Shown here: in pieces, positions 4,963 to 27,709 of the stretch | How positions within the stretch are numbered: position 1 is the first letter of the stretch | Layout of the letters: each line of letters opens with the position of its first letter | Origin: Flavobacteriales bacterium | GTDB taxonomy: Bacteria > Bacteroidota > Bacteroidia > CAIKAF01 | Direction of reading: 5' to 3' | Assembly: GCA_025055575.1 (NCBI GenBank) | Contig: JANWWP010000073.1 | Location: 1-35,522, forward strand | Length of the DNA stretch: 35,522 nucleotides | Program-made: the position numbers and the translations under genes | Notes under the pieces: generated by a model | What the model was told of the DNA's origin: nothing | Databases searched by the model: none | What the model saw: the letters and a program-made list of their open reading frames with translations, nothing else

Positions 4963-7161
4963 CTAGTATTTGATGAAACGTGTTAGAGCTTTTTGGCCAT
5001 CACAGGAGGCCCGGATAAGGTAAAATCCTGGATTCAGATGGCCAATATCCACGGGGGCTTGAAGAGCCCGCTGGAGCACCCTGCCTTGCAGATCCAGGAC
5101 CTCTAGATTGTGGCAGGGGGTTTTTACGTGCACGTATTGAGAGGTCGGATTAGGATAGACTTGAAATGTGCCCACCGTAGGTTCCGGCCCAGGCATTTGA
5201 GAGGCTGTGGCGGATCCCATAAACAGGGTGAGGCCACCGCAATAGTTGCCCACCACCAGGTCAGGCAGGCCGTCGCTGTTGATGTCGGCCAAGCTCACCG
5301 CGGTACGCGCGCCCTCGCGCAGGCCCAGGAATGCTGGGGTCACAAGTTGAAAGGCCCCCGAGAGGTTGCCGGCGATGTTGGAATAATGAAAAATGCGGCC
5401 GTTGTGGCTGCCAACGAAGAGTTCCCACTGTCCCCCGGACGTTTTAAAAAACCAGGGAACACTGTAGCTGTTGAAGGACAGGGCGCTGTCGATAACGTTC
5501 ACCTGACCGAGGTCCGCGATGGTGGGTGTGGAAGAAAAGCCCGGCAGCTGGGGCGTTCCGGTATTCTTATAAAAATTCAATTTACCCAGGCGATGACCGC
5601 AGACGATGTCCAAAAGGCCGTCTTCATCAAGATCCACCAGTTGGGGTGCGCTGAATTGGGGTTCCTGAATGAAGCCCACGCCGGATTGTTTAAGCACAAA
5701 CTGGGGAATGCCCCCGTTGGTTCCACTGTTTTCATACCAGTAAAGCCGTCCAGTGGACTCACCAAAGAGGAGATCCGCATCGCCATCGGCGTCCAGATCT
5801 CCAAAAGTGGGCGTGATATTTTGATAATTCCCCGCCAGCAGGCCGGCCAGGTCTGAAGTCATAAGTTCAAATACCGGCTGAGTGGGGGTGCCCGTGTTTC
5901 TGAAAAAGTACAAACGGCTTCGGCTTTGACCGGACTGATAAATATTGCCGTTGCCCACCGTTAAATCCAACAATCCGTCACCATCCACATCATGGAAAAC
6001 AGGATATGCTCCTTCGCCCACGTCCAGCATGTCTTTTTGTAAAAAATCTGTCCCCCAGAATTGAAAGGATGGCAGGGAGTCCCAGCCTTCATTGAGGTAT
6101 AGCCAGAGGCTGCGCGCATTTTCTGAATTGACGTTAAAATTGGGCGAGGCCAATAGATCGCGCCGTCCGTCGTTGTTCACATCTGTATAAAAGGCCGCTG
6201 GAAATATGGCCAAATTCACCGGCACGGAAGTTCCAAGGCCCGCCGGAAACTGAGGATTTTGGCTTCCAATAATGGCCGTTCCAGGAGGGCCATTGTCCAG
6301 CAAGAGCGTGAGTGTGGGGTAGCTGAGATCCCCCACCACCAAATCCATGCGTCCGTCCCCGTTGGCATCCAAACTCATCAAGGTGCTGCCGCCGTGGCGG
6401 GGAGGCCCCGGATAGGTGTGGATAAATTGGCCATCGCAACTGTCGTTCAAATAGAGTGTGTTGTTATTCGGGTCTTCCACCACATGCCCCCAGTTGTCGG
6501 TATGTAATTTGAAAATCAAGCTATCGGAATGTCCATACCATTCGCGTGAAAGATTTTTATGCATTTCCAAACAGGCCCCTAGGACATTAAAATTTAAGAC
6601 GTCCAGGTCGCCATCCTTGTCCAAATCAGCAAATACCGGATAATCAGCCCCGGAAATATAAATGCCGGTGGTAAAATTACCATAGTTGCTCATCAAAACG
6701 GGTTTCACCAATTGAAAGGAAAGGCCCTGGGGCGCAGAACCTATGTTGCGGTACACGGCGGCGCTGCCATTTTTGTAGGTGAAAAGATCCACTCGGCCGT
6801 CCTTGTCGTAATCCGTAAAAAATGTCCAGGCCTGAAGCCCATCCGGAAAATACGGTCTGTATTCCGGGGCGGGACGGTAAAGCATCTGGCCCGGGGCGCC
6901 GATGTTGAGAAAAGGCAGAAGGCGATGCCCCGTCCGATCAAAAGTGATCAGGTCGTTGAGGCCGTCGTAGTTGAGGTCGATGCTGTGGATTTGAACATAA
7001 TTGAGGCCTCCGCTCCAGGCCATCGGGAGCGCCGCGCCATTGACAATTATCGGGACGGTGTCCGTTCGAATAAAAAACGCCGGCAGTTGGCCCTGAATTT
7101 TTAATGGAAGGCTCAGCGCACCCCACCCGAAAAAAGCAATTCTTTTAAAAATGAAAGTCAT
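4963..7161 (-). CDS. FG-GAP/VCBS-repeat secreted protein with T9SS C-terminal signal
   Basis: A 732-residue surface or secreted protein from the ATG at 7161; a TTG at 7200 gives a longer form without a better signal peptide. A Lys/Arg-hydrophobic signal segment is followed by about nine FG-GAP/VCBS blades. Each has a Ca2+-binding DxDxDG-type loop followed by a beta strand (DLDKDGDLDVLNF, DANGDGRMDLVVG, DVNNDGRRDLLA, DVDGDGLLDLTVG, DLDADGDADLLFG, DLDEDGLLDIVCG, DINSDGLPDLVVG and two earlier ones). This predicts a seven- or eight-bladed propeller, perhaps with extra blades. The tail (VYPNPTSQYVHVKT ... GFYLIRA) is a YPNP-type T9SS sorting domain. The start overlaps the end of the DoxX-like gene by 17 bases. 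The ligand is unknown; such proteins often act in adhesion or matrix binding. Confidence 0.9.
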   Translation of the reverse strand: MTFIFKRIAFFGWGALSLPLKIQGQLPAFFIRTDTVPIIVNGAALPMAWSGGLNYVQIHSIDLNYDGLNDLITFDRTGHRLLPFLNIGAPGQMLYRPAPEYRPYFPDGLQAWTFFTDYDKDGRVDLFTYKNGSAAVYRNIGSAPQGLSFQLVKPVLMSNYGNFTTGIYISGADYPVFADLDKDGDLDVLNFNVLGACLEMHKNLSREWYGHSDSLIFKLHTDNWGHVVEDPNNNTLYLNDSCDGQFIHTYPGPPRHGGSTLMSLDANGDGRMDLVVGDLSYPTLTLLLDNGPPGTAIIGSQNPQFPAGLGTSVPVNLAIFPAAFYTDVNNDGRRDLLASPNFNVNSENARSLWLYLNEGWDSLPSFQFWGTDFLQKDMLDVGEGAYPVFHDVDGDGLLDLTVGNGNIYQSGQSRSRLYFFRNTGTPTQPVFELMTSDLAGLLAGNYQNITPTFGDLDADGDADLLFGESTGRLYWYENSGTNGGIPQFVLKQSGVGFIQEPQFSAPQLVDLDEDGLLDIVCGHRLGKLNFYKNTGTPQLPGFSSTPTIADLGQVNVIDSALSFNSYSVPWFFKTSGGQWELFVGSHNGRIFHYSNIAGNLSGAFQLVTPAFLGLREGARTAVSLADINSDGLPDLVVGNYCGGLTLFMGSATASQMPGPEPTVGTFQVYPNPTSQYVHVKTPCHNLEVLDLQGRVLQRALQAPVDIGHLNPGFYLIRASCDGQKALTRFIKY

Positions 7162-7570
7162 GCAACAAAGGCGTGAACCATAGGACAAAAAATGCGGCAA
7201 GCGCCATCAACGCGTAGGGTACGAGGGCTGCCGCGCCGGCGTAATCCTTGGCCATACGTTGTCCGAAAAACAACGCCAGAACCGATACCATGGAAAGTAC
7301 GACACCAAAGAGAGCAGGCTTCATGTCGTCCATTAATACATACACAAAGCCCACGAAACAAAAAATGCCACTAAAAACTTCCAGCGCGGTGAGAATGCTC
7401 AAAAGCTGAGGCACTGAGTGGCGCAAACGGCTTTGGGCAAAATGCTGTTGAAGCCATTTTAAATTGTCGGCCCTGTGAATGAGTTTATCTATTCCGGACT
7501 GAAGGAAAAGGATCGCTAAAAAAGCGGTACAAAAAAGAGCAGGGATGTGACGGATGCCAGCTTCTATCAT
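7145..7570 (-). CDS. DoxX-like integral membrane protein
   Basis: A 141-residue protein with four hydrophobic segments (about residues 7-27, 55-78, 83-103, 113-134). An N-terminal FLQSGIDKLIHRADNLKW motif fits the DoxX/DoxD-like family (typically 120-150 residues, four helices). Members of this family are linked to redox or quinone-associated membrane functions, but the role of this one is not known. The ATG at 7570 has an exact TAATTTTG box upstream on the same strand. It is the first gene of the minus-strand cluster and overlaps the FG-GAP gene. Confidence 0.8.
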   Translation of the reverse strand: MIEAGIRHIPALFCTAFLAILFLQSGIDKLIHRADNLKWLQQHFAQSRLRHSVPQLLSILTALEVFSGIFCFVGFVYVLMDDMKPALFGVVLSMVSVLALFFGQRMAKDYAGAAALVPYALMALAAFFVLWFTPLLHDFHF

Positions 7571-12452: not shown

Positions 12453-13673
12453 ATGGAAAAAGCTGCGAAACAAGTGCATGTGCCCTACGGAAAAAGTGTG
12501 CACGGCGAAGAGGAAATAAAGGCCGTAGTTCAAGTGCTGCGCACATCCACCCAGATGGGTCCTCATGTGGCCGAAATGGAGCGCCGCGTGGCCGCACTTT
12601 TTGATAAGCCTTTGGGTCTGATGGTGAACAGCGGCAGTACGGCCCTCTATCTGGCCGCTGATCTGTTGGATTTTCCCGCAGGTACAGAAATCATTACCCC
12701 GGTGCTCACCTTCAGTACAACGGTGGCGCCCCTTGTGAAAAAAGGCTGGGTTCCTGCTTTCGTGGATGTGGAAGAGGGCACTTACAACATGGATGTTTCT
12801 AAAGTGGAGGCCATGATCACACCGCGCACCCGCGCCATGTTTGTACCCAATCTCATCGGGAATTTGCCCGATTGGCCCGCATTGCGTCAATTGGCTGAAA
12901 AATATGGCTTGGCAGTTGTGGAGGATAGCGCCGACACTTTGGGAGCCACACTGAATGGCAGATCCAGCGGGGCCTTTTCTGACATTTCCACCACCAGTTT
13001 CTACGGCTCCCACGTCATCAATTGTGCCGGCAACGGCGGGATGATCTGCCTGCGCGACGAAGCTTTATACCGTCGCGGGAAACTCCTGCGTAGTTGGGGA
13101 CGCAGCAGCAGTCTTTTTGTAGAGAGTGAGAAAATCGAAAACCGCTTTAATGTGGAGGTGGATGGTATTCCCTACGATGCCAAATTCGTATTCGAAGAGC
13201 CGGGCTATAACGTGGAGCCTTCTGAAATAGGCGCTGCTTTTGGTTTGGTTCAACTCAATAAATTGGAGGAAAATATTCGGCGCAGGGAAGAAAATTTCAG
13301 CTTTCTGCTGCACTTTTTCAAGCGTTACGAAGAATTTTTTATCCTACCCCGCCAATTGCCAGGATCGCGCACAGGATGGCTGGCTTTTCCCTTGACCATA
13401 CGACCCTCAGCCCCTTTTTCGCGCAGAGACTTTCAGATTTTTATGGAGCAGAACGGTATTCAGACCCGCACAGTCTTTACCGGAAATATTCTTCGTCAGC
13501 CGGGCTTTAAAAACATCGCCTGCATCCGGGCTCAGGCTGGCTATCCGGAGGCCGATGCAGTGATGGCGGGCGGCGTATTGCTGGGTTGCCATCAGGGGCT
13601 CGGTGAGGAGCATTTGAACCACATTTCCGACACTTTTTTAGCTTTCCTTGAACACAAGAAAATCCCTTCTTAG
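12453..13673 (+). CDS. DegT/DnrJ/EryC1-fold sugar 3-dehydratase-like protein (RfbH/ColD type)
   Basis: A 406-residue PLP-fold (aspartate aminotransferase type I) protein of the sugar aminotransferase/dehydratase superfamily. NSGSTALYLAADLL and VVEDSADTLGA contact the cofactor in the family. At the position of the Schiff-base Lys it has His187 (SFYGSHVIN), the hallmark of the 3-dehydratase branch (CDP-glucose E1/RfbH and GDP-mannose ColD) rather than an aminotransferase. Downstream blocks GYNVEPSEIGAAFGLVQL and FTGNILRQPGF also resemble RfbH. The [2Fe-2S] Cys set of E1 is absent: the stretch after LRSWGR has Ser and no Cys (about 218-230). It is therefore ColD-like in chemistry and could remove a sugar C3 hydroxyl. 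No nucleotide-sugar genes lie beside it, so the substrate is unknown. Confidence 0.8.
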   Translation: MEKAAKQVHVPYGKSVHGEEEIKAVVQVLRTSTQMGPHVAEMERRVAALFDKPLGLMVNSGSTALYLAADLLDFPAGTEIITPVLTFSTTVAPLVKKGWVPAFVDVEEGTYNMDVSKVEAMITPRTRAMFVPNLIGNLPDWPALRQLAEKYGLAVVEDSADTLGATLNGRSSGAFSDISTTSFYGSHVINCAGNGGMICLRDEALYRRGKLLRSWGRSSSLFVESEKIENRFNVEVDGIPYDAKFVFEEPGYNVEPSEIGAAFGLVQLNKLEENIRRREENFSFLLHFFKRYEEFFILPRQLPGSRTGWLAFPLTIRPSAPFSRRDFQIFMEQNGIQTRTVFTGNILRQPGFKNIACIRAQAGYPEADAVMAGGVLLGCHQGLGEEHLNHISDTFLAFLEHKKIPS

Positions 13674-19833: not shown

Positions 19834-19841
19834 TATATTTG
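19834..19841 (+). promoter_or_regulatory. -7 box for the T9SS cargo gene at 19860
   Basis: TATATTTG is an exact TAnnTTTG match, 18 bases before the ATG at 19860. A T-rich TTTTTCG lies near the -33 position. Between box and ATG is an ACACC-TG-GGTGT inverted repeat (19848-19859) that ends right at the start codon. Confidence 0.5.
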
Positions 19842-19859
19842 CATACAACACCTGGGTGT

Positions 19860-21383
19860 ATGAAAAAATTTTTTACGCTTCTCAGCTTTTTGTGCTATTC
19901 AATCACTTGGAGTCAGGCCTATTTGGTTCTGAACGATGGGTCCGGCACCTTGCGTTTTCGTATGACGGGCACTAATCCGTATTTGGTGCTGAATAACGCC
20001 CACTTCATTAACAATGCCTCCACCGCGGCTTTCGATCCGGGTTCCGCCTCAGCCTCCAGTGGTATCGTATTGGTGACGGGGAACAGCAATACGGACATCG
20101 GCGGATCAGCTTCCACGAGTTTTTCCAATTTGCACATTAATAAATCCTCCGCGGAGGTTCGCTTGCAGCAGAATATTACAGCCACGTACCGGGCCTCTCT
20201 AATTGGAAGCTCCAATAACAATGTAAACCTGGACGATTATCAGCTGACTCTTGGAAGCAATGCCATCATCACGGGGGAGAATATTACTTCTCTCACAGGG
20301 AGCCGTTTTTATTGCAACGACGATAAGCTAGGTACCATTCGAAAAGATACTTCTTTCACCGCAGGGCCCACGGGCCAAAACGTAGGCAACATGGGTGTGA
20401 GAATTTGGGCCGCCGGAAATCTTGGACCCACTACCACCATTATCCGCGGTCATGATCGTCAGCTCAGTACTGTGATGGGTGCGGGTACAAGTATTGGACG
20501 CTATTTTGATATTATTCCGGGTGGCGTTTGGAACGGAATAAATGGAGGCATCCAAATGTTTTATCATGAAGCAGAACTTGCACCTCAGTCGGAAGGCAAT
20601 TTGGTGTTTTACAGGTCGCCCAGTTACGGGGCGGTTACGAATGATTGGCAGGAATACGGTTTTGGCTCTTATGCCGGGTTTTACGCAGGCTTAGGAATAT
20701 GGGCTACAAATGATGTTTCCAACAACTATGTGGATTTAAATTATTCTTCCGGCAGTCTTGGATTCCACGCTTTCTCCCGCTGGACTGTCAGTGATCCATT
20801 CACGGATCCCTTACCGGTCACGCTTACCAACTTCACAGCCTTATGCCAGGATGGCGAAGTGGCCATCTCCTGGAGCACGGCTTCGGAAATCAATTCAAAA
20901 GAATTTGTGGTGCAGCGAAGCACCGATCTCCTGCACTGGACTTTTGTGGGTTCTAAGCCCGGTGCCGGCAATAGTAATCAGCCGATCACCTACTCGTTGA
21001 CAGACCCTCGTCCTGAGCCGGGAACCAATTACTACAGGTTGTTACAGTATGATTTTAACCAGAATGAACCCAGTCAATTGAGTACGGTTTCAACAGCATG
21101 CGGAGGTGTCGGGACGGAGAATCTTGAAAATTTAAGTTTTTATCCCAACCCGGCTACAGATTACCTCACTCTGGAAATCACCGTTCCCAATGGCTGGAAC
21201 AACAGCATTCTTCAAGTGATGGACGTCACAGGGAAGCAGGTTTTTTCAAAGAATTTGAATTTAAAGGAAGGGTTCAATCAGATTATTTTAGATGTGAGCA
21301 CATGGGCGCCTGCTCCCTACACTTTTAAAGTTTCCAATGGACTCCGTTCCTTCCCGGTTCAAAAATTTGTCATTCATCGTTAA
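19860..21383 (+). CDS. T9SS-secreted surface protein with C-terminal sorting domain
   Basis: A 507-residue exported protein. It starts at the ATG at 19860 with a clear signal peptide (MKKFFTLLSFLCYSITWSQA); a TTG at 19839 would lie within the -7 box and is rejected. Residues about 20-320 form a Ser/Asn/Gly-rich beta region with no family I recognise. About residues 325-415 form a fibronectin-like domain common before such tails (LPVTLTNFTALCQDGEVAISW ... NYYRLLQYD). The final 75 residues are a YPNP-type T9SS sorting domain (FYPNPATDYLTLEI ... YTFKVSNG). The gene has its own promoter and a strong terminator after it. The ligand or activity is unknown. Confidence 0.88.
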   Translation: MKKFFTLLSFLCYSITWSQAYLVLNDGSGTLRFRMTGTNPYLVLNNAHFINNASTAAFDPGSASASSGIVLVTGNSNTDIGGSASTSFSNLHINKSSAEVRLQQNITATYRASLIGSSNNNVNLDDYQLTLGSNAIITGENITSLTGSRFYCNDDKLGTIRKDTSFTAGPTGQNVGNMGVRIWAAGNLGPTTTIIRGHDRQLSTVMGAGTSIGRYFDIIPGGVWNGINGGIQMFYHEAELAPQSEGNLVFYRSPSYGAVTNDWQEYGFGSYAGFYAGLGIWATNDVSNNYVDLNYSSGSLGFHAFSRWTVSDPFTDPLPVTLTNFTALCQDGEVAISWSTASEINSKEFVVQRSTDLLHWTFVGSKPGAGNSNQPITYSLTDPRPEPGTNYYRLLQYDFNQNEPSQLSTVSTACGGVGTENLENLSFYPNPATDYLTLEITVPNGWNNSILQVMDVTGKQVFSKNLNLKEGFNQIILDVSTWAPAPYTFKVSNGLRSFPVQKFVIHR

Positions 21384-23761: not shown

Positions 23762-26700
23762 ATGACCCGTTCTCTTTCTGCCCTAATATGCTTTCTGAGT
23801 GGACTTGTGTATTTTCCTTTCCGAGGGTGGGCGGAGGGCCCTTTCTTTATTGAAAACAAGGGCCAGTGGCATACAGAAGCCACGCACCGCTGCCTGGTAT
23901 CCGGAGCTGCGCTTTTTCTTAGAAAAGACGGTTATTCCCATGTGCTCTACGACAAAACTATCCTGGAATCCTGGCATAACGGTACCAGCACCCCTGAAAA
24001 TAATCCGCTGAAATTGGTGCATGTTAAGGTGACCTACGGCTGGTTAAAACATTCGGAAGCAACGCTGGAAAATCTTGAAGAAACCCCTTATTATGAAAAT
24101 TATTTTGTCGGATCGGATCCGGCTTTTTGGGCATCTCGTGCCCGGTCTTTCCGGCGCGTCCACTTTGAATCTCCGGATCGAAAGTATCGCTTGGAATGGC
24201 TGAGTGGCCCTGGCGGACTCAAATACAACCTTGTGTTGATGCCGGGGTTTGAACCCCAACACCTCTTTCTGCGTTTTGAAGGAGCCCAGTCTCTGGCCAT
24301 AGATGAATCGGGCCGGCTTCTGGTGCGGACAGAAGGGGGCTATGTGCGCGAAGATCGTCCCCGAGCCTGGTATGCGGACAATCCTGATGAAGCCATTCCA
24401 TGCTGGTACGAAGTGGCTGAGGAGGGGCGTGTCTATTTCAGGTTTCCTGAGAGTGTGGACAGGCGCCGTTCGGTGGTGGTTGATCCAGTGGTATGGTATG
24501 GAAGTTATTCAGGGAGCGCTTCGGACAATTTTGGGTTTACGGCCACATACGATGCACAGGGCAATGTATTCATAGCCGGCAACGTCTTTAATGTGGGGTA
24601 TCCGGTGACGGTGGGTGTTTTTCAGCCGGCTTTTGCGGCCGGGCTTAACGATGTGTCCATCACCAAGTTGAATGCTACCCTCACGGCCAACCTATGGAGC
24701 ACCTACCTGGGTGGCAATGGTGCAGAAAATCCGCACAGTGTGGTGGTCAATAATTACGGAGATCTGTTTGTGATGGGCACCACGGGCTCCGCCAATTTTC
24801 CCACCACGCCGGGCTGTTTTGATAACAGCTTTAACGGAGGGAGTAGTATGAATGTCATTTATTCCTTTAACTATCCCCAAGGCTGCGATATCTTTATCAG
24901 CCGCATCAAGAGCGACGGATCCCAACTCCTGGCGAGCACTTTTGTAGGGGGCAGCGGCAACGACGGGGTCAATCTGGACAATGCATTGGACAATAATTAC
25001 GCCGATATCGCCCGGGGTGAGATAGACATTGATTTATTCAACAACATCTATGTGGCCTCCGTCACACAAAGCCAGAATTTTCCTGGGGTTCAGAACACCT
25101 TCGGGCCGGTGTTCGGGGGCGGTGGTCAGGATGCAGTATTGTTTAAAATGGACAACAATCTGACCACCCTAATCTGGGCGGGGTACCTGGGGGGCAGCAG
25201 CGCCGATGCCGCTTATTCACTGTCCATTGAAAAAACAGGGCATGTTCTTGTTTCAGGAGGCACGAGTTCAGCCAATTTTCCCGTCACAAACGTCCCGGGC
25301 TTTTCTACATACAACGGCAACGTGGACGGTTTTGTCAGCCGGATAAAATCCGACGGAACCGCCATCCTCACCTCTATTTACTTTGGAACCCCCCAGTTTG
25401 ACCAGGCCTATTTTGTGGAATCAGGTAAGTCAGGTGATGTGTATCTGTTTGGACAAACAACCCACACGGGGACACAATTGATCTTCAACGCCACCTATTC
25501 GGTGACCGGAGGAGGTCAGTTTGTGAGCAAGCTTTCGCCCGGCATGAATTCTATGATTTGGAGCACACAGTGGGGCACCACGCCCGGTCAGATCAACATC
25601 TCACCCACGGCTTTCCTGGTGGATGTGTGCAACAAAGTGTACATGAGCGGTTGGGGCGGCCAGGTGAACCAGTCCTACGTGCCCGGCAGTACCACCACGG
25701 GTTTGCCCACCACTGCAGGGGCGTTGCAAACCTCCACCACGGGCAGTGATTTTTATGTGATGGTCATGGAGGAAAATGCCGCCGGCCTGTACTATGCCAC
25801 TTTCTTCGGCGGACCCACCTCTGCAGAGCACGTGGATGGAGGTACCAGCCGGTTTAACCGAAAGGGTGAAATTTATCAGGCCGTGTGTGGCGGCTGCGGC
25901 GGTTGGTCCGATTTTCCCACTTCCCCTGGCGCCTGGTCGGCTACCAACAACTCCACCAACTGCAACAACGCCGTGTTTAAGATAAATTTTGACTTTCCCA
26001 CCCTGCTGGCGGATTTTACCGTGCCTCCGGCCCAATGCGCACCGGCCACTATCACATTCAATAATTTAAGTACCAACGGAATTACATATCAATGGAATTT
26101 TGGCAACGGCCAAACGTCCACCCAAACCAATCCGACAGTCACTTATACTTCCCCCGGCACTTACAACGTCACGCTTGTGGCTTTTAACAACACGGGCAAT
26201 ACCTGCAACGCGGTGGACAGTATGGTGAAACAAGTGTACATTTTTGGCAACAGTACTCAGCAGCAGCCCCCCGTGTATGTTTGCGATAACCAACCCACGC
26301 AAATCGGCTTTCCGCCATCGGGCGATCCTTCCGTCACCTACCAGTGGATCCCTGCCACGGGCCTCAGCAGTTCCTCAATATCAAATCCGATATTCAATCC
26401 GTTGGTTGGCAGCACCACCTATTCCGTCTTAATATCCAATTCCGTGTGCACGGACACTTTGATTCTGCCCGTCGTGGTGCAGCCTTTTCCCAATCTAAGT
26501 CTTAACGATACGACGGTTTGTGCTGGTCCTGTGCCCATCGGATTCCCAACGGTTATTCCGGGCGCTACGTATGTCTGGAGTCCGGCTTCGGGCCTGAGCG
26601 ATCCCAATTCTGCCAACCCTGTGGCGAATCTGACTCAGAGCGCTACATACACCGTCACTGTCACCCTGGGCAATTGCTCCACCACCGTGACCCGCACTCT

Positions 26701-27709
26701 CAACGTGATTTCCATCGGTAGTTTCAATACACCGGACACCACCATTTGCCGCGGCGATAGTTTTCAGGTGACGGACCTCCCGCTGAATCCCGGTCTCACG
26801 GCCCAGTGGAGCCCCGCCACCGGTTTGTCTTCAGCCACTTCTCTGCAGCCCTTTGCCAATCCCCTCACCACCACCACCTATACCATCATCATTTCCAACG
26901 GACAATGTACCGACACCCTGACCAAAACCATCCAGGTTATCGAATTCCCCGCCGAAGCGGGCAATGATACCACAATTTGTGCAGGGGATGCCATCGTCTT
27001 GGGGCCTGCCAGTCCTGTTCCGTTTTTATCTTACAATTGGTCGCCTTCCACAGGTCTAAGCGCTACGGATATACCCAATCCCTTGGCCAGCCCGGCCTCC
27101 ACAACCACCTACATTGTGTCCACATCGCTGGCATCCAACCCCCAGAGTTGTGTGCACAGCGACACGGTGCAGGTAAGCGTTTTTGCGGCTCCAGGCGGGG
27201 GCATCCTTTTTACGGAATACGCTTCCTGTCTGGGTTTGAGTGTGAAGGCTGAGCCCAATCCGCCAGGTGGATCAGGCAATTATACCTGGATTTTGCCCGA
27301 TGGCCAGACCGTTCAAGGCCCTCACGTCTTTATAGATGTGCCTTTTGAAACCACCATCCAGGTGGGTCTTGAGGTTCAGAACGGCCCTTGCCGGGATACG
27401 GTCTATTCCACTTTTGCAGCCAAACCGCTGGACCATTACTTTGGTAATATTGTGATGCCGAATGTGTTCACACCGGCCAGCTCCCCAACCCTGAACGATT
27501 GTTTTGCGCCGATCGGGTTATCCGAGTGTTTTGATTTGCTCGTGTACAACCGGTGGGGGAACTTAATTTTTGATTCCAGAGAATTGAACAAGAATTGTTG
27601 GGACGGCAAAGTTTGGAAATCTGATCAGATGGCCAGCGACGGGGTCTATTTCTATATTTTGGACGCCTTTGGCAGGACCTGGCATGGCACGGTCAGCCTG
27701 GTTCGTTAG
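23762..27709 (+). CDS. large T9SS cargo: DUF7948-like, SBBP-like propeller, PKD, Ig-like repeats, CHU_C tail
   Basis: A 1315-residue secreted surface protein. A signal peptide (about 1-24) is followed by FFIENKGQW and a domain (to about residue 240) like DUF7948 of Bacteroidota surface proteins. Residues about 245-690 hold repeated beta-propeller-type blades (FIAGNVF, WSTYLGGNGAEN, SANFPTT, AGYLGGSSADAAYS), similar to SBBP repeats. A PKD domain follows at about 750-815 (YQWNFGNGQTST ... SPGTYNVTLVAFNN). Four tandem Ig-like modules at about 840-1140 each carry W-x-P-x-(T/S)-G-L-S and NP. The last 87 residues are a CHU_C tail (NVFTPASSPTLND, YNRWGNLIFDS). It is likely an adhesin or matrix protein; no catalytic motif is seen. 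The next gene follows after only 14 bases. Confidence 0.92.
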   Translation: MTRSLSALICFLSGLVYFPFRGWAEGPFFIENKGQWHTEATHRCLVSGAALFLRKDGYSHVLYDKTILESWHNGTSTPENNPLKLVHVKVTYGWLKHSEATLENLEETPYYENYFVGSDPAFWASRARSFRRVHFESPDRKYRLEWLSGPGGLKYNLVLMPGFEPQHLFLRFEGAQSLAIDESGRLLVRTEGGYVREDRPRAWYADNPDEAIPCWYEVAEEGRVYFRFPESVDRRRSVVVDPVVWYGSYSGSASDNFGFTATYDAQGNVFIAGNVFNVGYPVTVGVFQPAFAAGLNDVSITKLNATLTANLWSTYLGGNGAENPHSVVVNNYGDLFVMGTTGSANFPTTPGCFDNSFNGGSSMNVIYSFNYPQGCDIFISRIKSDGSQLLASTFVGGSGNDGVNLDNALDNNYADIARGEIDIDLFNNIYVASVTQSQNFPGVQNTFGPVFGGGGQDAVLFKMDNNLTTLIWAGYLGGSSADAAYSLSIEKTGHVLVSGGTSSANFPVTNVPGFSTYNGNVDGFVSRIKSDGTAILTSIYFGTPQFDQAYFVESGKSGDVYLFGQTTHTGTQLIFNATYSVTGGGQFVSKLSPGMNSMIWSTQWGTTPGQINISPTAFLVDVCNKVYMSGWGGQVNQSYVPGSTTTGLPTTAGALQTSTTGSDFYVMVMEENAAGLYYATFFGGPTSAEHVDGGTSRFNRKGEIYQAVCGGCGGWSDFPTSPGAWSATNNSTNCNNAVFKINFDFPTLLADFTVPPAQCAPATITFNNLSTNGITYQWNFGNGQTSTQTNPTVTYTSPGTYNVTLVAFNNTGNTCNAVDSMVKQVYIFGNSTQQQPPVYVCDNQPTQIGFPPSGDPSVTYQWIPATGLSSSSISNPIFNPLVGSTTYSVLISNSVCTDTLILPVVVQPFPNLSLNDTTVCAGPVPIGFPTVIPGATYVWSPASGLSDPNSANPVANLTQSATYTVTVTLGNCSTTVTRTLNVISIGSFNTPDTTICRGDSFQVTDLPLNPGLTAQWSPATGLSSATSLQPFANPLTTTTYTIIISNGQCTDTLTKTIQVIEFPAEAGNDTTICAGDAIVLGPASPVPFLSYNWSPSTGLSATDIPNPLASPASTTTYIVSTSLASNPQSCVHSDTVQVSVFAAPGGGILFTEYASCLGLSVKAEPNPPGGSGNYTWILPDGQTVQGPHVFIDVPFETTIQVGLEVQNGPCRDTVYSTFAAKPLDHYFGNIVMPNVFTPASSPTLNDCFAPIGLSECFDLLVYNRWGNLIFDSRELNKNCWDGKVWKSDQMASDGVYFYILDAFGRTWHGTVSLVR

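Follow-up and report, generated by a model that had tools for sequence, protein, structure and literature searches.

The gene at positions 12453 to 13673 of the window, by which we mean the whole 35,522-nt stretch of DNA analysed, probably codes for an Fe-S-free, PMP/PLP-dependent 3-dehydratase of CDP-4-keto-6-deoxyglucose with ColD-like chemistry. We give this reading, in which both substrate and chemistry are predicted from sequence and gene context, a probability of about 0.7. The gene belongs to a separate family that spans more than one bacterial phylum and is unnamed in the libraries and the open-licence literature searched (a keyword search of open-licence PMC, in which 'ColD' also matched 'cold', returned no recognisable description of it). 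The following features of the gene are referred to below:

12453..13673, plus strand: predicted Fe-S-free RfbH-like nucleotide-sugar 3-dehydratase gene, ATG start, 406 aa
12933..12935, plus strand: codon of Asp161, which aligns with E1 Asp194 (Glu in ColD-type rows)
13002..13004, plus strand: codon of Tyr184, which aligns with E1 Tyr217 (Phe in ColD-type rows)
13011..13013, plus strand: codon of His187, which aligns with E1 His220 and replaces the PLP lysine (80/80 rows)
13089..13151, plus strand: near-invariant segment, residues 213-233, in the place of the E1/RfbH Cys loop

The ORF is flanked by recG and nqrA, and its protein matched PF01041 (DegT/DnrJ/EryC1/StrS) with 257.9 bits against a gathering cut-off of 19.8. 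The best PDB sequences were E1 (3bcx, 5.7e-62) and then ColD (3b8x/2gms, 5e-42 to 7e-42), which were again the nearest solved sequences, in this order, when a profile of 60 family members was used. With the same profile, PDB 9wvy, a putative NDP-4-keto-6-deoxyglucose-3-dehydratase on which the open-licence PMC keyword search found no paper by name, gave 2.4e-36, weaker than E1 and ColD. As for NF011936, the NCBI model of RfbH, the window protein scored 293.5 bits and the family member of genome G050 scored 307 bits, both under the curated cut-off of 423, versus 710.6 and 715.5 bits for the RfbH proteins of genomes G019 and G030.

The original prediction had described a protein with His187 instead of the PLP lysine, sequence resembling RfbH and none of the cysteines of the [2Fe-2S] enzymes, and all three points were borne out. 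His187 aligned with the corresponding His in ColD and in E1, where it is residue 220 of the chain; at this position Lys-type relatives have K. It was kept in 80/80 aligned rows, represented by the window protein and 79 of the best 80 loci among 304 stretches, and in 7/7 alphaproteobacterial members examined; with His in all 80 rows, a sequencing difference from Lys was ruled out. Hence the protein lacks the PLP lysine of the Lys-type DegT sugar aminotransferases. Asp161, Tyr184 and His187 reproduce the E1 set at positions 194, 217 and 220, of which we take the Asp and the Tyr to be catalytic, and all three were kept in the 7/7 alphaproteobacterial members. The four ColD-type proteins compared carry Glu/Phe/His at these positions, a signature that the window protein does not have.

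The cysteines were considered by their positions in E1. Positions 251, 253 and 261 are Cys in 31/31 Cys-type RfbH rows (E1 included), and position 257 is Cys in just 4/31. In the alignment the window protein had no Cys at any of the four, the residues at 251, 253 and 261 being S, L and E (the last one being I in another alignment). The segment that replaces the RfbH cysteines reads RSWGRSSSLFxESExIENRFNV and is near-invariant in the 80-row alignment.

The family was collected by a scan of GTDB contigs, which gave 304 confirmed stretches, the best 80 of which were kept; these had 67-78% identity and, by record title, came mostly from Bacteroidota bins, e.g. Chitinophagaceae and Flavobacteriales. 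Among the Bacteroidia members identity was 66-78%, versus about 30-38% to RfbH. Two members at 70-71% identity, labelled Phycisphaerales (L044) and Azovibrio (L054), are probably misbinned Bacteroidota contigs. A search of plasmids at E<=1e-60 gave 26 records: 23 at 61-66% identity, from Sinorhizobium/Ensifer, Roseibium/Labrenzia, Leisingera and Palleronia, two at 46-48% (Rhodococcus and Embleya), and one that is an RfbH (Azospirillum). A family restricted to Bacteroidota, which we had also considered, was overturned by the alphaproteobacterial plasmid members. The Rhodococcus and Embleya relatives (L205:9989-11209 and L206:9998-11218) keep Asp and His and have Ala or Ser in place of Tyr, and no RfbF, RfbG, RmlC or RmlD-like gene was found within about 10 kb on either side of them. 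Without the Tyr and the RfbF/RfbG neighbours, these cousins suggest that not every relative shares the CDP-sugar role, and they may be His-type enzymes whose substrate is not a nucleotide sugar.

Three trees were computed, all of which carried long-branch warnings. The first tree omitted L092-L094 and L119 (from the same genomes as F_L012, F_L018 and F_L011), L118 (identical to the C61_own protein) and the repeat own-genome matches L005, L091, L108 and L112. In this tree the Bacteroidia members formed one clade (100/100) separate from Cys-type RfbH (100/99), and the order of ColD, window family and RfbH was left without resolution. A pruned, narrower tree, from which 12 rows were omitted (L002, L003, L098, L101, L104, L113, L123, L137, L141, L142, L147 and L148), grouped the window family and ColD (88/67; 87% of the bootstrap trees, against 8% with RfbH). 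A broader tree, to which alphaproteobacterial and actinobacterial members were added and from which L136, L143, L145, F_L036, F_L043 and F_L056 were omitted besides those 12 rows, placed it with RfbH at 91/77 (92%, against 5% with ColD). In the broader tree all the family members formed one clade (100/100), the Bacteroidia members grouped at 92/74 and Cys-type RfbH was separate (97/93). Whatever the branching order, the family was inside neither ColD nor Cys-type RfbH in any tree, and its place outside the Cys-type RfbH clade was seen in both the first and the broader one, in line with the new subgroup that the original prediction gave as one of two options. We preferred the broader tree because the family is sampled most widely there, so the sister group is probably Cys-type RfbH, with the order still unsettled. 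At 40 positions the family agreed with the RfbH rows but differed from the ColD-type ones, versus 14 for ColD, a count that leans against ColD because all four ColD-type rows had to agree and only 90% of the others.

The genomic link of the family to the CDP pathway is strong. In genome G050 (L183) the gene order is RfbF-RfbG-RmlC-RmlD-family gene, all five being consecutive; genome G019 (L181) has the identical RfbF-RfbG-RmlC-RmlD row, but the last slot is taken by a Cys-type RfbH (the 710.6-bit protein above, cut-off 423). The order in Azospirillum is rfbF-rfbG-rfbH. Precisely, among the best 80 of the 304 loci, an RmlD-like reductase was directly upstream in 6, all Flavobacteriales-type: in 5 of them RfbF, RfbG, RmlC and RmlD were all within 9 kb, and in the sixth there was RmlD alone. 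None of the four genes was found in the stored flank of 74/80 loci, some flanks being short. In the alphaproteobacterial plasmids RfbF-RfbG was directly upstream in 7/7 loci fetched (of the 23 records), in 3 of which the deposited gene names were rfbF/rfbG.

As for the window itself, no sugar-nucleotide gene was found among the ORFs scanned, a scan that took in part of the ORFs. Thus the earlier statement that no such genes are near holds locally and fails for the rest of the genome, in which contig C26 carries RfbF, RfbG, an RmlC-like and an RmlD-like gene contiguously. RfbF (358 bits, cut-off 300.25) and RfbG (379.8, cut-off 278.45) were over the NCBIfam cut-offs, and the RmlC-like (149.6 vs 155.75) and RmlD-like (154.9 vs 224.05) genes were below them. 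No PF01041 match was found on C26. The same four genes occur in G001, the genus neighbour of the window genome (L188). RfbF and RfbG are therefore unlinked to the family gene in the window genome and adjoin it in some relatives, and, taken together, these findings make the window gene the fifth member, now relocated, that the RfbF-RfbG-RmlC-RmlD operon lacks. The term "orphan", used for it originally, does not stand, and the proposed search of the genome for a partner 4,6-dehydratase or reductase gave both, RfbG and the RmlD-like gene on C26. The apparent orphan could be placed by means of relatives with an intact operon. Directly before RfbF in the operon of the window genome there is also a galactokinase-like kinase gene (L117:5839-6948).

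Co-occurrence pointed to the same pathway. RfbG was over its curated cut-off in 54/55 family genomes scanned, i.e. 5/5 relatives and 49/50 further genomes (the one without being G490), versus 7/55 relatives and 51/393 phylum members without the family. The 50 further genomes were an arbitrary pick of the 77 other family genomes, mostly with long loci and with L044 and L054 excluded, and a few genomes occur in both background samples. Within the taxonomic family of the window, RfbG was present in 4/4 genomes with the gene family vs 2/12 without it. The Fisher values for RfbG co-occurrence were 1.5e-4 and 9e-36, calculated with shared descent ignored. For the 30 RfbG matches with the highest scores (out of 49), RfbF was adjacent in 29 and an RmlC-like gene in 23; an RmlD-like protein was found in 47/50 family genomes and lacking in 3. 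One of the 50 family genomes had a further, RfbH-like match (E<=1e-42), which was Cys-type; in the other 49 the family would stand in for RfbH. As a yardstick, 26/27 phylum-sample genomes with an RfbH-like match have RfbG. Overall RfbG was found in 53/395 genomes of the phylum sample, 2 of which have the family, and in 25 of the 53 there was no strong match to either dehydratase, which implies a use of RfbG in other pathways as well. Genomes with a 3-dehydratase, whichever the kind, nearly always have RfbG, and RfbG does not require a 3-dehydratase.

Since gene order, co-occurrence and replacement within the operon all tie the family to RfbF/RfbG, CDP-4-keto-6-deoxyglucose, and not an unknown or a GDP sugar, is very probably what the enzyme acts on. 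The suggestion of a ColD-like enzyme acting on an unknown substrate is thus kept for the His-type active site without Fe-S cysteines and abandoned for the substrate. In the proposed route, RfbF (glucose-1-phosphate cytidylyltransferase) and RfbG (CDP-glucose 4,6-dehydratase) would supply CDP-4-keto-6-deoxyglucose, at the C4 ketone of which PMP would form a Schiff base; His187 would deprotonate the cofactor and the C3 hydroxyl would be lost, as in E1 and ColD. The 3,4-ene intermediate would then most likely be hydrolysed in a ColD-like manner to CDP-4-keto-3,6-dideoxyhexose with release of ammonia and PLP, and an amino donor, e.g. glutamate, would serve to regenerate PMP. We infer the hydrolytic ending, which is the simpler one here, and the use of glutamate solely from the absence of the cysteines, i.e. 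of a [2Fe-2S] centre to take electrons from a reductase. Finally, an RmlC-like epimerase, probably acting at C5, and an RmlD-like reductase, acting at C4, may lead to an ascarylose/colitose-type CDP-3,6-dideoxy-L-hexose. The protein remains best described by the second option of the original prediction, as a new subgroup that resembles RfbH in sequence and, presumably, ColD in chemistry.

These steps follow the known enzymes as set out in the accessible part of the review PMC8987622, in which His220 of E1 is named. There, E1, ColD and SpnQ share the first half of the reaction, namely the PMP Schiff base, the His-mediated proton removal and the loss of the C3 hydroxyl. E1 and SpnQ then reduce the intermediate through a [2Fe-2S] centre and a reductase, and in ColD the intermediate hydrolyses and PMP is remade from glutamate. 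Nucleotide and chemistry are thus paired in that text, CDP (E1) and dTDP (SpnQ) with Fe-S plus reductase and GDP (ColD) with hydrolysis plus glutamate.

An E1-like reductive deoxygenation of the CDP-sugar, with the electrons passing via different ligands of a metal or coming straight from a flavoprotein, is the alternative that survives best, and we consider it unlikely. The sister position to Cys-type RfbH in the broader tree and the common operon slot are in line with it, as are Cys191 and Cys379, both present in 80/80 Bacteroidia rows. However, Cys191 is Ala or Gly in 6/7 alphaproteobacterial members, and for this reason an alternative conserved cysteine set was ruled out; Cys199 is present in 75/80 Bacteroidia rows and 7/7 alphaproteobacterial members, and Cys379 is the sole one of the three recurrent cysteines kept in all the 80 + 7 rows. 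Moreover, in the operons that were looked through by eye, nothing resembling a redox partner adjoined the gene. The absence of a reductase near the family is not diagnostic, because among six RfbH stretches with wider flanks an E3-like reductase was seen by eye beside RfbH in only one (L184, a match to PaaE below cut-off) and not in L181, L182 and L185-L187.

The window genome also codes for a second His-type, ColD-like protein (G000:C61:17029-18159; L118:8826-10166), which lies directly after folE and is closest to ColD (2.2e-61 to 2gms). Being present in both the window genome and G001, it might be the CDP-sugar dehydratase of this genome, with the window gene doing something else, but we regard this as very improbable. 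In fact, C61-type proteins were found in 1/53 other family genomes (E<=1e-60) versus RfbG in 54/55, which rules them out as the general enzyme of the pathway, and it is the window family that the RfbF/RfbG operons contain. In addition, a GDP-mannose 4,6-dehydratase over cut-off (592.4 bits, cut-off 415) on contig C59 of the window genome could partner the C61 protein, and is likelier to do so. Least probable is another step of the same CDP pathway, e.g. on the RmlC-like product, or with PMP used for an epimerisation or a transaminase-like reaction at C4: sequence cannot tell which of the RmlC-like and dehydratase steps comes first, and His-type SpnQ shows aminotransferase activity without its reductase according to the accessible part of PMC8987622, but the window family lacks the PLP lysine and shares its slot with Cys-type RfbH.

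For the Fe-S-free dehydratase that we favour, E1/AscC/RfbH (CDP-6-deoxy-L-threo-D-glycero-4-hexulose-3-dehydrase; NF011936; 3bcx) is the closest solved enzyme in sequence and fold, with the Asp/Tyr/His set and the RfbF-RfbG operon slot in common; the family differs from it by a mean identity of 32%, by the lack of Cys at 251/253/261, by its separate clade and by scores under the NF011936 cut-off. ColD/WbdK (GDP-4-keto-6-deoxymannose 3-dehydratase; 2gms, 3b8x) shares His for Lys, the lack of Cys at the E1 positions and the PGYNVxPxE and CHQ/NHQ-like stretches. It differs in Glu/Phe versus Asp/Tyr, in a mean identity of 25% and in its use of GDP versus the CDP pathway context of the family. SpnQ (dTDP-4-keto-2,6-dideoxyglucose 3-dehydratase) was set beside the family by its description in the accessible part of PMC8987622: it too is a Lys-to-His 3-dehydratase, but one that carries [2Fe-2S].

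A CDP-pathway enzyme without Fe-S would break the pairing of nucleotide and chemistry given in that part of the review. It is an even call, in our view, whether the family is a third class of His-type 3-dehydratases, found in Bacteroidota and on alphaproteobacterial replicons, working iron-free on CDP-sugars with an older hydrolytic chemistry to which the Fe-S centre of E1/RfbH was a later addition (the tree behind this being one without SpnQ). The later addition is suggested by the ColD-type and Lys-type rows, which are also without the cysteines. If true, two chemistries could be compared on one substrate, and an iron-independent enzyme for making CDP-3,6-dideoxyhexoses would be at hand. The family could also flag CDP-3,6-dideoxyhexoses where the usual RfbH marker is missing (49/50 family genomes).

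A monomer model of the window protein had a mean pLDDT of 86 and was confident except at residues 1-3 and 215-251; the latter, i.e. the segment replacing the Cys loop, had pLDDT <50. As a guess, this near-invariant yet poorly predicted segment may be ordered by the dimer, the cofactor or the sugar. In fold searches with the model, E1 came top both by Foldseek and by Z (48.9, versus 46.3 for ColD). By Foldseek, Lys-type aminotransferases stood between E1 and ColD, which first appeared at rank 13, and by Z the predicted fold put ColD second, tied with GDP-perosamine synthase; with such enzymes ranking alongside ColD, the fold does not separate the chemistries.

Several minor observations were made on the loci. 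A C-methyltransferase (PF08484) follows the family gene in L202 and L208, both scanned, and a class I SAM methyltransferase is downstream of it in L203 and L207 (annotated) and L211 (by eye); none was seen in L201 and L204. A methyltransferase after the dehydratase gene suggests a C-methylated dideoxy sugar. A membrane-protein-like ORF of about 124 aa lies directly downstream on the same strand in 40/80 loci (L013 to L087), and one representative, searched against Pfam, had no family over cut-off. A small VOC/glyoxalase-like gene is near both the Rhodococcus and the Embleya relative (a Pfam match in L205, by eye in L206). A Synechococcus phage (L209:4887-6179) codes for an RfbH-like protein among sugar genes, with Cys at E1 positions 251, 253 and 261, annotated as CDP-4-dehydro-6-deoxyglucose 3-dehydratase. 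Elsewhere in the window, positions 30-1739, 4963-7200, 19839-21383 and 23762-27709 code for large proteins that carry sorting domains of type IX secretion (CHU_C, Por_Secre_tail).
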